Source: Aliirhizobium wenxiniae
Lineage (GTDB): Bacteria > Pseudomonadota > Alphaproteobacteria > Rhizobiales > Rhizobiaceae
Assembly: GCF_014201355.1 (NCBI RefSeq)
Contig: NZ_JACHEG010000002.1
Location: 744,001-808,000 of the forward strand
DNA: 64,000 nucleotides
Reading direction: 5' to 3'
A program made the position numbers and the translations under genes. The notes beneath the pieces are model-generated. The model was given only the letters and a program-made list of their open reading frames with translations. It ran no database searches and had not been told where the DNA came from. The stretch's first letter is position 1. Each line of letters begins with the position of its first letter. Shown piece by piece: positions 7,359 to 12,967 of this stretch.

Positions 7359-7505
7359 GGAGATTGTCAATCGGCAGGTTGTTCCATCATGAAGCAGTCG
7401 CGCATGAGGGGAAAGAAAAATGATAAAGGCGGGACGAGGCCACGCGCTAAAGATTCCTTCGCGAGTTTGATCTAGAACGTCCTTCAGGATACCGGAGTTC
7501 TGCCG

Positions 7506-8510
7506 ATGGATACGCCACCGCTGATGACGCCTGCCATTCCCGGTCTCGTCTGGGCCTACCGCTTCGATGGGCCGACGCGATCCTGCGCGCGGCTGCCGCT
7601 TGAGACGACGGCACGGGAGCTGGATAGCGGGGACGGATTTCTGTGGTTGCACCTGAACCTTGCCGACAGCCGGGTGCCGGCCTTTCTCGAAAACCTGCCG
7701 GGCGTGACGCCGCCGGTGCTGGCTGCGCTGACAACCCGTGACACCCACGCGGCCATCATTCTCGACGAACAGCTGATCTACGGCACGCTGATCGACTTCC
7801 AGAAGGAGTTCGACAGCGAGACGCGCGATATCGGCTGGCTGCATTTCTTCGTCTCCGACCGCATCATCATCACCACAAGGCTGCAGCCGCTACGCTCCAT
7901 CGATCGGCTCAAGGCCCAGATGGAAAAGAACGCGGCACGCTACAAACGACCGATCGACGTATTCGAGACGCTGGTGGCGGAATTCCAGCGGACGCTGATC
8001 TCGCTCGTCATGGAACTGACGGAAGAGCTGAACCTGATCGAGGATTTCGTCTACGACAACGCACCGCGCGACGAACGCCGCAAGCTTGCGCCCGTGCGCC
8101 GCACCGTCGTTCGGCTGCACCGGCATCTGCGAACGGTGCTGACCCTGATGCGGCGTGCTGCTGCTTCCGACGAGGACGAAATGCCGGATGGTTTCGACGA
8201 TGCCGCAGCGAGGCTGATCAGCCGTCTCGAAGCGGTCGATCATGACGTCTATGCGCTGCAGGAACGGGCGCGGCTGCTGCATGAAGAAATCGATTCCAAG
8301 CTTTCGTCGGAAACCAACCGCCACCTCTACATCCTGTCGCTGATGACCGCCTTCCTGTTGCCGCCTTCGCTGGTCACCGGCTTTTTCGGGATGAATACGG
8401 AAGGCCTGCCGTTTGCGCATCTGGAGCACGGCACCCTGTTCGCCTTCGGCGCGATCGGGCTTTCGGTCGCCGCCGCATGGTGGCTGCTCAGGCGCGTCGG
8501 CATTCTCTGA
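7506..8510 (+). CDS. CorA family divalent metal transporter, ZntB-like
   Basis: The 334-residue protein has a large soluble N-terminal domain, a long charged helical region and two C-terminal membrane helices. The signature GMN occurs in GFFGMNTEGLPF between the two helices, as in CorA, and the following residues (TEGLPF) are closer to the ZntB subgroup. CorA proteins are pentameric magnesium/cobalt channels, while ZntB members move zinc; length and loop favour ZntB-like, but sequence alone does not settle the metal. GGAG lies eight bases before the ATG. The gene is monocistronic and convergent with the BA14K-like gene. Confidence 0.82.
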   Translation: MDTPPLMTPAIPGLVWAYRFDGPTRSCARLPLETTARELDSGDGFLWLHLNLADSRVPAFLENLPGVTPPVLAALTTRDTHAAIILDEQLIYGTLIDFQKEFDSETRDIGWLHFFVSDRIIITTRLQPLRSIDRLKAQMEKNAARYKRPIDVFETLVAEFQRTLISLVMELTEELNLIEDFVYDNAPRDERRKLAPVRRTVVRLHRHLRTVLTLMRRAAASDEDEMPDGFDDAAARLISRLEAVDHDVYALQERARLLHEEIDSKLSSETNRHLYILSLMTAFLLPPSLVTGFFGMNTEGLPFAHLEHGTLFAFGAIGLSVAAAWWLLRRVGIL

Positions 8511-8567: not shown

Positions 8568-9041
8568 TCAGTAATAGGGCGAATAACAGGTCTGGCGCGG
8601 CCCGTTATACGGCTGGAACGAGTTCGAATAGCTATCATAGGACCGGTAGCGGCCCGCGCACCATTCATAGTGGCGCGGGTTCAAGCCGCCTCCGCCGCTA
8701 TAGGCAGGCCGGGGTGCGGGCTCGACATAACGCGGCTGCGAGGCGATCGCTCCTCCGATGATCGCGCCGGCGCCGAAAGCTGCAAGCGGATACCAGTAGC
8801 CGTCGCTGTGACGATGATATCCGTCACGGTGATAACGGTAACCGCGATGACCTCCGTACCAGCCACGGCGCGGGCCATCGCCACGCCAGCCGCGGTCGCG
8901 ATAATATTGCACGTTGCTGACGTCGGATACGACCGGCGCATTCGGTACAGCCGGCAGCGGCAGCGCCTGCGCGGTTCCGAGCGAGCCAGCGAGAACCACG
9001 GCTGAAACAGCTGCAACAGCAAATTTCTTGAACAGAGTCAT
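8568..9041 (-). CDS. BA14K-like secreted protein (copy 1)
   Basis: This 157-residue protein has an N-terminal signal peptide (lysine followed by AVAAVSAVVLAGSLG and an ALA-like cleavage region), a segment rich in Arg, His, Tyr and Gly, a hydrophobic glycine/alanine stretch ([12 protein letters not shown]) that may insert in a membrane, and a C-terminal motif with YEWCAGRYRSYDSYS and a second cysteine near the end. The ending matches the BA14K family, named after a Brucella immunoreactive protein; related proteins bind carbohydrates or affect the envelope, but no function can be assigned here. A paralogue lies immediately upstream on the same strand. Confidence 0.82.
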   Translation of the reverse strand: MTLFKKFAVAAVSAVVLAGSLGTAQALPLPAVPNAPVVSDVSNVQYYRDRGWRGDGPRRGWYGGHRGYRYHRDGYHRHSDGYWYPLAAFGAGAIIGGAIASQPRYVEPAPRPAYSGGGGLNPRHYEWCAGRYRSYDSYSNSFQPYNGPRQTCYSPYY

Positions 9042-9214: not shown

Positions 9215-9700
9215 TTACCTGTAAGGCGAAACGCAAGAGCGGCGGACACCGGCGCTGGCGACATAGGTGTTGTCCGAAGCACGATAGGTCCGGTAGCGAT
9301 TGGCGCACCACTGATAATGGCTGCCCCCCGAAGCCCGCGGCTGGTTGGCGATGGCCCCGCCGATAATTGCAGCGGCACCGAATGCTGCCAGCGGGAACCA
9401 GTAACCGTTGTGATAGCGATAGCCTTGGCGGCGCTCGCGATATCCGCGGTGGCCGTTGTAATATCCTTCCCGATAGGCGCGTCGATCATGGCGATAGTGA
9501 CGGCGATCGCGATCATGGCGGTAATAGCGGCGATCACGATCGTCGCGACGGTATTGGACCTCGGTCGCCTGGTTGGCGGAACTCTGCACCGCCATCGGTG
9601 CCGCCGGCATCACAGGTGCGGCCGAAACCGGAATAAAACTCGTAGCAAGAACGGCCGCTGCCGTGAAGGCGGTGGCAATGCGCATGCGAAATGCGGTCAT
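9215..9700 (-). CDS. BA14K-like secreted protein (copy 2)
   Basis: The 161-residue product repeats the layout of its neighbour at 8568-9041: a signal peptide, an extended [10 protein letters not shown]-type basic and aromatic region, a hydrophobic [12 protein letters not shown] segment, and a C-terminal [18 protein letters not shown] motif with a final cysteine. The two are tandem paralogues on the same strand, each with its own hairpin downstream, so they are probably separate transcription units. The repeated His/Tyr/Arg pattern is much longer in this copy and could bind metal or polyanions, which is speculation. Function unknown. Confidence 0.8.
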
Positions 9701-10298: not shown

Positions 10299-11198
10299 AT
10301 GAAAGAAGACAAACGTCCAATCCTGGTATTCGGCGCCACCGGCCGGCAGGGTGGAGCGGTCGCCGAAGCGCTTTTGAAGGCAAGATGGCCCGTTCGCGCG
10401 ATTGTGCGAGACACTGCGGCCCCCAAATCCGTCGCCCTTCGTCAGGCGGGTGCCGAACTGGTTGAAGGATCATTTGCCGATCTCGATAAATTTCGCGCCG
10501 TGATGGACAGTGCTCATGGCGTGTTCAGCGTATTACCGGCCAACCTGTCAGAGACCGAAGAGGTACGGATAGGATGCGCGATCGCCGATCTTGCAGCCGA
10601 AAGCGGCGTCGCGCATCTCGTCTATTCCTCGGGCGCCAGTTCCGGCGACACACCGACCGGCATCGCCCGTTTCGACGCCAAGCCGCGGATCGAGGCGCAT
10701 ATCCGCCGGCTACCGGTCACCGCAACGATAATCAGACCGATGATCTTCATGGAGATGCTGATCAACCCGGCATTCGGCCTTTCGGAAGGCCGTTACACGT
10801 TCCTCCTCAGGCCGGACCAGTCGATGCAACTGATTGCCGTGGAAGACATCGGAAAATTCGTCGCCGCGATCTTTGCCGATGGGATGCGGTTCAGCGGACG
10901 AACGATGAAGATCGCGAGCGATACCGTGACAGGTCGTGAGCTGGGAGAAATCTTCAGCGAAGCCGCCGGTCGTCCGGTCGTTTATTCCCGCTTTGCCGAT
11001 GAAGTCCTTTCCGCCAACAGCGATCTTAGTCAGCTTGCGGCGATCCTGGATAACGGCCCGCTGGCGGATCACGTGGACCTTGCCGCGATGCGCGAGATCA
11101 ATCCCGAGATCCTTTCCTTTCGGACCTGGCTTGCGACCCAAGGACACCAAGCCTTCGACGCCGTAATCGGGAGTGATCGCACGTCCCACTCGGCGTAA
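10299..11198 (+). CDS. NmrA/NAD(P)-binding oxidoreductase
   Basis: The 299-residue protein begins PILVFGATGRQGGAVAEALL, a Rossmann-fold glycine motif, and continues as an atypical short-chain dehydrogenase of the NmrA/QOR2 type. Such proteins bind NAD(P)H and either reduce quinones or small carbonyls or act as redox sensors. It lacks an obvious YxxxK catalytic pair in the usual place, as is common in NmrA-like members. The ATG at 10299 is preceded by GAGG. It is divergent from the HxlR regulator, a frequent pairing. Confidence 0.78.
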   Translation: MKEDKRPILVFGATGRQGGAVAEALLKARWPVRAIVRDTAAPKSVALRQAGAELVEGSFADLDKFRAVMDSAHGVFSVLPANLSETEEVRIGCAIADLAAESGVAHLVYSSGASSGDTPTGIARFDAKPRIEAHIRRLPVTATIIRPMIFMEMLINPAFGLSEGRYTFLLRPDQSMQLIAVEDIGKFVAAIFADGMRFSGRTMKIASDTVTGRELGEIFSEAAGRPVVYSRFADEVLSANSDLSQLAAILDNGPLADHVDLAAMREINPEILSFRTWLATQGHQAFDAVIGSDRTSHSA

Positions 11199-11204
11199 AA
11201 ACAG

Positions 11205-11240
11205 GCTCCTCCGCAAACTGACGGCACATTGCGGAGGAGC
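11205..11240 (-). terminator. Terminator of the Rieske oxygenase gene
   Basis: GCTCCTCCGCAA and TTGCGGAGGAGC form a perfect twelve-base-pair stem with a 12-base loop. On the minus strand it is followed by CTGTTTTTAC, so it ends the Rieske oxygenase transcript; it also separates the convergent NmrA-like gene. Confidence 0.8.
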
Positions 11241-11248
11241 GCTCAGTA

Positions 11249-12493
11249 TCACGCCACCGCGTAAAGCGTGCTGTCCTTGCCCTGCAGGCGATCGATCATG
11301 AAGTTCGAATACCATTCGACGAACTGCATCACACCGCCTTCATGCGCCTCGGAATAAGGACCGGGTTCATAAGCGGGCGAGCGGATGCCGAAGGCGTTTT
11401 CCTCGACGATCTGCCTGTCCTGGTCGTTGGTCATGTTCCAGACATGGGTCAGCTGCTCGACATCGTAATCGACGCCTTCCACCGCATCCTTGTGGACCAG
11501 CCATGTGGTGGTGACCGCCGTCTCTTCCGGCCCGATCGGGATGACTCGGAAAGAGATCGCGTGGTCGACCAGCATATGGTTCCAGGTGGTCGGGTAATGG
11601 AACAGAAGCATCGTGCCGATATGGGAAATCGTCACGTCGTCGGAAAGCGATCGTTGAACTGCGGGACGGCCGTTCATCGTGTAGCTTTCGGCATCCTCGA
11701 TCAGCGGCATACGCGCCACGCGGAACTGGCCGTCCGGCGACATGTTGAACGTGCTCGGCAAGCCGGCCGCTTCACAGCGGCTCCAGTGTTCGGAAATGAA
11801 CGGATCGTCGCCTGCGCCCTGCACACCGGTCGCAGTCGGCGCTTCCGGGTAGGTGCGGCAGAGTTCAGGATGGTTGCCGGCGCAATGATAACACTCGCGA
11901 TTGTTTTCCCAGACGAGCTTCCAGTTGCCCTTTTCGATAATCGTGTTCTGGGCAGCAACCTTCGTTTCGGGCAGGCGATGCGGCGCCATGTAAGGCTCTA
12001 CCGTTGCGCGAACCGGAGCAAAATCCGGAGCTTCCTTTGCGAGGCAGATAAAGATGTAGCCGGCAACCACCTGACAGTGAACGGGTTTCAGTCCAAACTG
12101 CTTCTTGTCGAAATTCTCGCCCATATGACGGGCCGACATCAGCGAGCCGTCATGCTGGTAGGTCCACTGGTGATAGGGACAGACGAGGCGGGTCGCAGAA
12201 CCCGTTTCCTTGGTGCAGACGCGGTGGCCACGATGGCGGCAGGTATTGTGATAGGCGCGGACATCGCCCTCGCGCGTGCGGATGACGAGAACCGGATAGT
12301 CGCCAACCTGCAGGGTGAAATACATGCCCGCTTTGTTGATCTGGCAATCGTGGCCGGCAAACAGCCAGTCGCGATACCAGATCATCTCGAGATCGAGCTT
12401 GTAATAATCGGGATCGATATAAAAGGGCTGTTCCAGGCTGAAACCTTCGCGGCGGTTCTTCAGCTGCCGCAGAACCTGATTGTGAATGTCCAT
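11249..12493 (-). CDS. Rieske-type oxygenase alpha subunit, glycine betaine/stachydrine/carnitine demethylase-like
   Basis: The 414-residue protein has a Rieske [2Fe-2S] site (C85, H87, C105, H108) and a mononuclear iron site (H203, H208). The residue that bridges the two centres, normally Asp, is Glu (E200 in RECYHC), as known for carnitine oxygenase CntA. Length and the ENNRECYHCAGNHPEL segment place it with GbcA (glycine betaine), Stc2 (stachydrine) and CntA: N-demethylating or C-N-cleaving monooxygenases of quaternary amines. A ferredoxin-reductase partner such as GbcB is not adjacent and must be encoded elsewhere. GAGGAAG precedes the ATG. A cobalamin riboswitch lies about 105 bases upstream in the same orientation, so expression should fall when cobalamin is plentiful. 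Family confident; substrate inferred. Confidence 0.82.
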   Translation of the reverse strand: MDIHNQVLRQLKNRREGFSLEQPFYIDPDYYKLDLEMIWYRDWLFAGHDCQINKAGMYFTLQVGDYPVLVIRTREGDVRAYHNTCRHRGHRVCTKETGSATRLVCPYHQWTYQHDGSLMSARHMGENFDKKQFGLKPVHCQVVAGYIFICLAKEAPDFAPVRATVEPYMAPHRLPETKVAAQNTIIEKGNWKLVWENNRECYHCAGNHPELCRTYPEAPTATGVQGAGDDPFISEHWSRCEAAGLPSTFNMSPDGQFRVARMPLIEDAESYTMNGRPAVQRSLSDDVTISHIGTMLLFHYPTTWNHMLVDHAISFRVIPIGPEETAVTTTWLVHKDAVEGVDYDVEQLTHVWNMTNDQDRQIVEENAFGIRSPAYEPGPYSEAHEGGVMQFVEWYSNFMIDRLQGKDSTLYAVA

Positions 12494-12597
12494 ATGCTTC
12501 CTCGCAATACAAGCAAGCTTCAGGGCATGGACAAGCCGGCAACAATCAATGCAGCCAATTCCCGTCCCGTGCGCCCTCCGCGACCGGTGTCATCAAA

Positions 12598-12800
12598 CTC
12601 AGGCTGGTTTCCGGGCTGAGGAGTTGTCCCAAAAGGACTGCATGGTACCTTCCCGGTCGGCCGTTCGGCTCTGTCCCAGTGGCCGGGGTCGCCCCCTACC
12701 ATGCCTTCAACTCCACCACCGTTGCGGGGGCAGCGCCGGATAGATCTTTGCGATCCGCCGGCTTCCCAATTCTCCGCCTCCCCTAGCGAGGCGGCACCTT
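12598..12800 (-). ncRNA. Cobalamin riboswitch
   Basis: Read on the minus strand, the element has the conserved blocks of the cobalamin riboswitch in order: AAGGTGCC at the 5' end (near 12800), AATTGGGAAGCCGG, ATCCGG followed by GCTGCCCCCGCAACGGTG, GGCCACTGGGA, CGGGAAGG, and a B12-box-like AGCCCGGAAACCAGCCTGAG at 12598-12617. Paired segments GGAGTTG/CAACTCC and GCATGGTA/TACCATGC support the fold. It ends about 105 bases before the Rieske oxygenase start, with no other gene between. In Gram-negative bacteria this class usually blocks translation when adenosylcobalamin is bound. The identification rests on manual motif matching, but six blocks in correct order make it strong. Confidence 0.92.
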
Positions 12801-12967
12801 GAGCTTTGTCATATTTAAGCGGGATGCCGGCCTGTCGCATAGACGACATTGCGACATCGGCCACTGCATTGGCGACGATCGCGCAATAGCATTCGATGTC
12901 GGGGGAAACCGACTGTTAAGGTCTTGCTAATAGTGTTCTTGAAAATTCATTGGGAAGAGCCGCCGCC
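12801..12967. other. Divergent promoter region, no gene seen
   Basis: This stretch separates the 5' end of the cobalamin riboswitch from the hypothetical gene at 12968. It should hold two back-to-back promoters. AT-rich bases at 12811-12819 and 12925-12950 are candidates, but I cannot place -35/-10 boxes with confidence. Confidence 0.4.

Follow-up and report, generated by a model that had tools for sequence, protein, structure and literature searches.

What might a B12-sensing RNA do in front of an oxygenase for quaternary amines? The question is raised by a locus of Aliirhizobium wenxiniae (NCBI RefSeq assembly GCF_014201355.1, contig NZ_JACHEG010000002.1, positions 744,001 to 808,000), of which we analyzed the whole stretch of 64,000 nucleotides, hereafter the window. 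On the minus strand of the window, a gene for a Rieske oxygenase (11249..12493) is preceded by a cobalamin riboswitch (12585..12817). We found that rhizobia keep the riboswitch of this gene almost only alongside a predicted B12-dependent betaine-type methyltransferase. We therefore consider it probable that the riboswitch-Rieske unit is a cobalamin-repressed, O2-dependent stand-in for the organism's own predicted MtgBCD-type betaine demethylase.

The riboswitch-Rieske pairing in rhizobia

The initial annotation had read a cobalamin riboswitch from sequence blocks on the minus strand, and an Rfam covariance search bore this out. RF00174 matched at 12817-12585 with 76.5 bits (cut-off 31.5, E 4.5e-17) over the full length of the model (positions 1-189 of 189), and it was the sole gathering-level Rfam match within the window. 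The extent given for the unit, 11249..12800, was right at its lower limit, which is the end of the Rieske open reading frame (ORF), whereas the riboswitch reaches 12817, 17 nt past the upper limit. The riboswitch ends 91 nt ahead of the start of the Rieske ORF.

Orthologs of the Rieske protein with at least 63% identity are present in 120 of 297 genomes of the family, A. wenxiniae included. We examined the leaders of all 120 (family set) and of the best 80 of 587 loci from a genome-contig scan (named set). Removal of five named loci whose DNA was identical to family-set loci left 195 rows including the window, and 194 of them were assessable after one locus at a contig end (L077) had been left out. 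The pairing that the initial annotation had described for a single locus recurs in other rhizobia: 129 of the 194 assessable orthologs have the riboswitch, with a B12 box 185-274 nt ahead of the start codon, and 65 lack it. Rfam confirmed 50 of the 129 positive loci, namely the window, 11 loci of a first sample, five of a later check and 33 of a final sample; the other 79 were called by motif scan alone. The scan, whose threshold of 44 was set against reverse-complement leaders (maximum 39), agreed with Rfam at 19 of 20 loci in the first sample, and all 33 motif-called positives sampled at the end were confirmed with 75.7-117.3 bits. One riboswitch, that of L019, was missed by the scan and found by Rfam. 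Rfam checks of the negatives covered all 35 in the family set and 13 of 33 in the named set. Given the Rfam score and the conservation at orthologous loci, a chance match was rejected. Paralogs from Rhizobiaceae with 52-58% identity (L208-L216) showed no riboswitch in the motif scan, the only search applied to them, the leader of L216 comprising just 176 nt.

At one locus, in a metagenome-assembled genome of Hyphomicrobiales (L098), the riboswitch-Rieske pair adjoins a second element resembling a cobalamin riboswitch (7378-8031, minus strand, B12 box near 7851; motif scan only). It sits between metH and an ORF of 123 amino acids that it would control.

Co-occurrence with the corrinoid methyltransferase MtgB

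A B12-dependent route of betaine demethylation has been described around MtgBCDE. Mutants of Ruegeria pomeroyi showed that MtgC and MtgD are required for betaine demethylation, a PF06253-type MtgB was proposed as their methyl-donating partner, and MtgBCDE were stated to be colocalized in S. meliloti (PMC12478193, accessible passages). Besides an MtgB that scores 758 bits to PF06253 (corrinoid betaine-type methyltransferase), the MtgBCDE-type cluster of the A. wenxiniae genome includes a pterin-binding protein of MtgD type, DUF1638 and, above its cut-off, a protein of MtgE/Bmt type.

Genomes were scored for MtgB on the basis of PF06253 and of a protein search with MtgB at 1e-100; one genome (G236) with only a paralog-level score (3.4e-195) was counted as present. 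Over the 194 rows, which for this association are rhizobial only, riboswitch and MtgB are both present in 125, both absent in 59, and found singly in four (riboswitch) and six (MtgB). The corresponding numbers were 80, 33, 4 and 2 for the 119 genomes of the family set, and 46, 29, 0 and 4 for the 79 assessable of 80 loci of the named set. The association has a Fisher p of ~1e-37 if kinship is ignored. When kinship was taken into account on the Rieske tree, MtgB differed within nine independent pairs, and the riboswitch was concordant in a mean of 7.6 and opposed in 0.0 of them (p 0.0078, range to 0.031); the family set alone yielded six pairs, with 5.8 concordant and 0 opposed (p 0.031, range to 0.0625). 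Even the two records of one species, R. lusitanum, differ jointly: Opo-234 has riboswitch and MtgB, SEMIA 4060 neither. This near-perfect, tree-controlled co-occurrence supports one of the two explanations offered in the initial annotation, that the enzyme might replace a B12-dependent demethylation. Since the riboswitch is kept almost only with MtgB, the Rieske enzyme is likely turned on as a spare in B12 shortage.

The other explanation concerned MetH: when B12 is short, MetH would fail and the Rieske enzyme would be induced to supply one-carbon units or homocysteine methylation. We searched for MetH at 1e-200 in 80 of the 120 family-set genomes (all 39 lacking MtgB or the riboswitch and 41 with both). 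It was present in all 33 genomes without riboswitch and MtgB, in 4/4 with the riboswitch only, in 34/41 with both and in 0/2 with MtgB only, so that seven of the 45 tested riboswitch-bearing genomes had no match at this threshold. MetH was therefore rejected as the explanatory trait, as was MetE, which is not associated with the riboswitch (15/84 riboswitch-bearing versus 8/35 riboswitch-less genomes, Fisher p 0.61, tree pairs p 1). Oxidative demethylation would, moreover, consume the betaine needed by an MtgE/Bmt-type route. A methionine link is nevertheless consistent with the position of metH, which lies within ~10 kb of the Rieske gene in seven of 71 MetH-bearing genomes and adjoins the Rieske operon in Cereibacter; both positions also count against the stand-in function preferred here. 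Likewise, MtgC and MtgD serve methionine synthesis as well as betaine demethylation in R. pomeroyi (PMC12478193, accessible passages). Taken together, we regard the MetH rationale as distinctly unlikely.

The distribution of the riboswitch might also reflect co-inheritance without function, if riboswitch and MtgB were lost together wherever B12- or betaine-related regions are dropped. The two traits change only 13 and 12 times on the tree, which would be compatible with such a history. However, RF00174 matches were found in all 40 genomes checked, 35 of which are riboswitch-less at the Rieske gene; these 35 of 35 riboswitch-less family-set genomes keep RF00174 elsewhere, none at the Rieske gene (positions compared by eye), and they retain the Rieske gene itself, 33 of them also MetH. 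A general loss of B12 regulation was rejected on these grounds. In addition, the Rieske/riboswitch locus and the MtgB locus of A. wenxiniae are on separate contigs (C2 and C1), and MetE does not co-vary. We thus give little credence to mere co-inheritance. Because the controls with MetH, MetE and other RF00174 matches show no tracking, we conclude that it is the B12-dependent demethylase that the riboswitch tracks, rather than these other measures of B12 metabolism.

Leader RNA, enzyme and electron donor

In the aptamer, covariation was visible when 40 diverse related leaders were folded: changes on both sides in at least two sequences support 24 of 56 consensus pairs. The B12 box, GCCACTGG (12676..12683, minus strand), recurs in orthologous leaders with its order unchanged. 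We take GCCCCCGC (12724..12731, minus strand) to be loop L5, one half of a predicted L5-L13 kissing loop, and GCGGAGGGC (12573..12581, minus strand), which lies in a downstream hairpin and could pair with L5 except for one bulged base, to be loop L13; these names are those of published cobalamin riboswitch structures. The sequence GCGGNGGGC occurs exactly in 118 of the 129 riboswitch-bearing leaders, 20-28 nt past the aptamer core, and with at most one mismatch at this conserved place in 124. Among the 65 riboswitch-less leaders it occurs once, and the six other riboswitches of the A. wenxiniae genome lack it. We interpret this sequence as the half of the predicted kissing loop that L13 contributes.

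Further downstream, folding predicts a hairpin (12496..12518, minus strand) in which the Shine-Dalgarno sequence (GAGGAAG, 12503-12497) would be sequestered. The folding z of the whole segment with this hairpin is -1.55, not significant alone. Arms covering the Shine-Dalgarno sequence were found in 46 of 126 riboswitch-bearing leaders compared to 16% in shuffles, and they were not enriched in riboswitch-less leaders (7/61 versus 12%). The consensus terminator scan (loops 3-8) listed no transcription terminator in the leader on the minus strand. The enrichment hints at translational control without amounting to proof.

The whole genome of A. wenxiniae contains seven RF00174 matches. Besides the one at the Rieske gene, they precede an nrdI-nrdE-type operon, a BtuF/HmuT-type periplasmic binding protein, a BluB-like protein, a CobW-type operon and membrane proteins, names that were read by eye from the ORFs without a family search. 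The B12 regulon is an ordinary one, with the Rieske gene as one unusual member. One of the membrane proteins, with 225 amino acids and of unnamed family, lies behind the riboswitch at G000:C2:297754-297948 (L006).

The Rieske protein itself comprises 414 amino acids, matches Rieske (PF00355) and Ring_hydroxyl_A (PF00848) above the Pfam cut-offs, and is the one Rieske protein of the GbcA/Stc2 kind in the genome. Its closest solved structures by score are 3n0q, 3vca (which we take to be Stc2) and 4qup, with 532-537 bits. Of the relatives named in the initial annotation, GbcA and Stc2 held and CntA was far weaker: the best NCBIfam family is GbcA (NF058607, 499.8 bits), identity to Stc2 is 57% (222 of 390 aligned residues), and CntA scored 104.7 bits. 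With an equivalog cut-off of 670, the GbcA score is too low for the protein to be classed as GbcA; the orthologs from S. meliloti and Paracoccus reached 513.8 and 535.3 bits. In the tree, it falls in a clade separate from Stc2.

Ten residues are invariant in all 195 aligned orthologs, the window included: the Rieske Cys2His2 set (C85, H87, C105, H108), Asn198, the bridging Glu200, the iron ligands His203 and His208, and the Cys201-x-x-Cys204 pair. Asn198 stands at the position of CntA Tyr203, where Asn marks clade Vb, the demethylases (PMC7948474, with further residue marks for this clade of quaternary-amine enzymes in PMC10952381; accessible passages of both). Candidates for the third iron ligand, an aspartate, include the conserved residues at 357 (194/195) and 359 (195/195), among others. 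The profile matches and aligned residues place the enzyme in group Vb (GbcA/Stc2 type).

That the Rieske gene is the only gene downstream of the riboswitch, as the initial annotation had it, agrees with what follows its stop codon. A 12-bp inverted repeat, GCTCCTCCGCAA (11240-11229) and TTGCGGAGGAGC (11216-11205), is followed by CTGTTTTT, together a likely transcription terminator (11197..11240, minus strand, identified by eye). It is absent from the consensus scan list, its loop exceeding the 3-8 limit of that scan. An NmrA-type ORF comes next and is encoded on the opposite strand. Because of this repeat with its T-run and the opposite-strand neighbor, the Rieske gene looks like the sole gene of its transcript.

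From these features, the following mechanism can be proposed. Binding of cobalamin to the leader would keep the Rieske gene off, probably at translation through the Shine-Dalgarno hairpin, and the enzyme would be made when B12 or cobalt is short. With O2, it would then convert glycine betaine, or a closely related compound, by demethylation into dimethylglycine and formaldehyde. The corrinoid route yields methyl-tetrahydrofolate and the oxidative route formaldehyde, so that the one-carbon product would change accordingly between the two states.

We infer glycine betaine or a near relative as the substrate because of the clade Vb Asn, the best-matching families GbcA and GbcB (the latter for the neighboring reductase in other genomes) and the betaine-like neighborhood of a Paracoccus ortholog described below. 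The enzyme might instead act on proline betaine or another methylated amine and back up another MttB-family paralog, and the identity to Stc2 as well as a second MttB paralog in the A. wenxiniae genome would fit this. With respect to the substrate contacts of Stc2 (PMC10952381, accessible passages), Ala223 corresponds to Thr222 in the A. wenxiniae protein and Trp353 is kept. Such a substrate is, however, hard to align with the Paracoccus neighborhood, and S. meliloti carries its Stc2-type gene with stc4 on pSymA, riboswitch-less and apart from the ortholog of the A. wenxiniae gene. We hold another substrate to be rather unlikely, and the switch logic is unchanged if it applies.

A reductase gene directly follows the Rieske gene at 118 of 128 riboswitch-bearing and 38 of 65 riboswitch-less ortholog loci. 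Its best family is GbcB, with 385.7 bits against an equivalog cut-off of 500. A GbcB-like reductase is missing from the flanks read at L038-L043, L051, L057 and L060 and in the R. leguminosarum group (e.g. L113).

Related loci, counter-evidence and known systems

In S. meliloti Ak57, the ortholog lies in the gene order of the window and is preceded by a 100-bit riboswitch, and an MtgB of 89.5% identity is located on the same record as the Rieske ortholog. On pSymA of S. meliloti (strain ABS7), the Stc2-type gene accompanied by stc4 has a LysR neighbor. SMc00982 of S. meliloti 1021 is probably the ortholog of the A. wenxiniae and Ak57 genes, judging from position and description and not from an alignment. 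A cobalamin riboswitch (Rfam) upstream of smc00982 was listed in 2007 (PMC2245857) and tabulated beside SMc00982 in 2008 (PMC2573895), in both cases without a B12-related role in the accessible passages, and the gene has been called "likely encoding a dioxygenase" (PMC2848018, accessible passages). The initial annotation had known of no description of the pairing; these passages record the riboswitch and give the gene no B12-related role. Another betaine-catabolic system of S. meliloti besides Bmt has been reported (Barra et al. 2006, as cited in the accessible passages of PMC12478193), and SMc00982 with its reductase is one candidate for it, beside MtgBCD itself.

The ortholog on Paracoccus versutus pTAV3 (68.5% identity) has no riboswitch. 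Its neighbors are a GlxA-type regulator, electron transfer flavoprotein subunits, folD, a flavin adenine dinucleotide enzyme with GcvT/sarcosine-oxidase-like parts, purU, the reductase, a glutathione-independent formaldehyde dehydrogenase (fdhA) and a BCCT transporter. These surroundings look like a betaine locus, and the formaldehyde dehydrogenase beside the operon fits an oxidative demethylase. Rhizobium CB3090 (L249) likewise has a riboswitch-less Rieske locus.

Among 14 Rhodobacterales plasmid loci, for which riboswitch and Rieske genes were covered, the riboswitch is directly ahead of the Rieske gene in six (Phaeobacter, Ruegeria TM1040, two Tritonibacter, Cereibacter and Gemmobacter). 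Because the Rieske genes of these six fall in the Stc2-containing clade, the pairing either has two origins or is ancient and has been lost repeatedly. The best PDB match, 3n0q, is presumably from Ruegeria sp. TM1040 (formerly Silicibacter), the source of the riboswitch-bearing megaplasmid gene L238. As a tentative extension, for which we would claim less than even confidence, the riboswitch may act as a points-switch for methyl groups, with corrinoid transfer to tetrahydrofolate and methionine when B12 is available and an oxygenase leading to formaldehyde when it is not. This switch would have been recruited more than once, with a GbcA-like enzyme in Rhizobiaceae and a Stc2-clade enzyme in Rhodobacterales, as a general B12-free reserve of alphaproteobacteria living on plant and algal betaines.

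In addition to the metH positions mentioned above, several observations weigh against a stand-in for MtgBCD. Six MtgB-bearing genomes have a riboswitch-less, Rfam-negative Rieske gene (L045, L046, L059, L073, L160, L164), and four genomes have a weak riboswitch and no MtgB. The latter belong to one genus (g94), with aptamers of 56-61 bits, a B12 box GCCCCTG and no L13 found at its conserved place; they look like decaying switches. L019 (68.8 bits) has MtgB and also lacks L13 at its place. Eight of the 14 Rhodobacterales loci are riboswitch-less (four Paracoccus, Salipiger, Ponticoccus, Pseudosulfitobacter and Qingshengfaniella). About 132 of 215 MtgB-bearing family genomes have no Rieske ortholog, and the spare enzyme is therefore optional. 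MtgB is a genome-wide trait that could be a proxy for another linked trait, further MttB paralogs are frequent in the genomes, and the tree test rests on nine pairs, or six with the family set alone. With regard to the proteins, the GbcA and GbcB family scores are both under the curated equivalog cut-offs, and the A. wenxiniae corrinoid protein, whose best family is the glycine-betaine MtgC, scores 204.8 bits against a cut-off of 370. Finally, no GbcB-like reductase was found in the whole genome of A. wenxiniae (best match 28% over 138 amino acids); since the usual partner gene is missing in this lineage, we infer an unlinked reductase as electron donor.

In genus g94 (G169, G094, G229, G283), the metH match contains one in-frame stop in three genomes and is partial near a contig end in the fourth; in this genus, the B12-dependent route to methionine may be decaying as well.

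The proposed stand-in function would join a known pattern. Work by Rodionov et al. in 2003 (J Biol Chem) reportedly described B12 riboswitches that control the B12-independent isozymes MetE and class I ribonucleotide reductase (NrdAB), and an 'ardX-frdX' operon for an aromatic ring dioxygenase and a ferredoxin was reportedly named there as B12-regulated. As in those cases, the riboswitch sits on a B12-free enzyme and is kept where the B12-dependent counterpart is present; its presence in the same genome, and the absence of the riboswitch where the counterpart is absent, hold with 10 exceptions in 194. The parallel to class I ribonucleotide reductase extends to A. wenxiniae, whose nrdI-nrdE-type operon (named by eye) is likewise preceded by a riboswitch. 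The present case differs in that it concerns catabolic demethylation, the Rieske and Mtg enzymes being unrelated and their one-carbon products different. The A. wenxiniae unit is thus likely another B12-independent isozyme governed by a B12 riboswitch, in this case one that demethylates betaine.

The unit shares with GbcA/GbcB of Pseudomonas and Chromohalobacter the best NCBIfam matches of oxygenase and reductase and the group Vb residues, and it differs in its sub-cut-off scores, the riboswitch in front and the lack of a reductase gene in A. wenxiniae. With the stachydrine demethylase Stc2 of S. meliloti it has sequence identity and catalytic residues in common, whereas clade, LysR neighbor and lack of a riboswitch set the pSymA gene apart. 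SMc00982 resembles it in the upstream cobalamin riboswitch and the likely dioxygenase function and differs by its reductase gene (PMC2848018 and PMC2245857, accessible passages). MtgBCDE (PMC12478193, accessible passages) has the same presumed substrate, and a matching gene set lies in the same genome; that system is a B12-dependent methyl transfer without O2, and the protein families are unrelated.

In the open-licence literature searched, we found no link between the Rieske enzyme and MtgB and no paper joining cobalamin riboswitch, Rieske and betaine; riboswitch and Rieske appeared together only in the Caldithrix and Azotobacter genome papers. The word dioxygenase is absent from the main text of PMC3766115 as far as accessible. 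A lead to MesD/MesX was dropped, the accessible part of PMC7857596 containing neither riboswitch nor Rieske nor demethyl-; no genome search was made for it.

Elsewhere in the window, two neighboring small secreted-type ORFs (8568-9041 and 9215-9700) have middles rich in Gly, Tyr and Arg. In S. meliloti Ak57, the annotation has a BA14K family protein at a comparable position, a correspondence by location.

Overall, a riboswitch target that stood without a role in a 2007 list for S. meliloti now has a likely function, together with a partner and a rationale. The rule that B12 controls B12-free isozymes, known from biosynthesis, would thereby reach the catabolism of a major osmolyte. For rhizobia, and perhaps for roseobacters, these results predict that cobalt or B12 limitation would shift betaine use from B12-dependent to O2-dependent demethylation.

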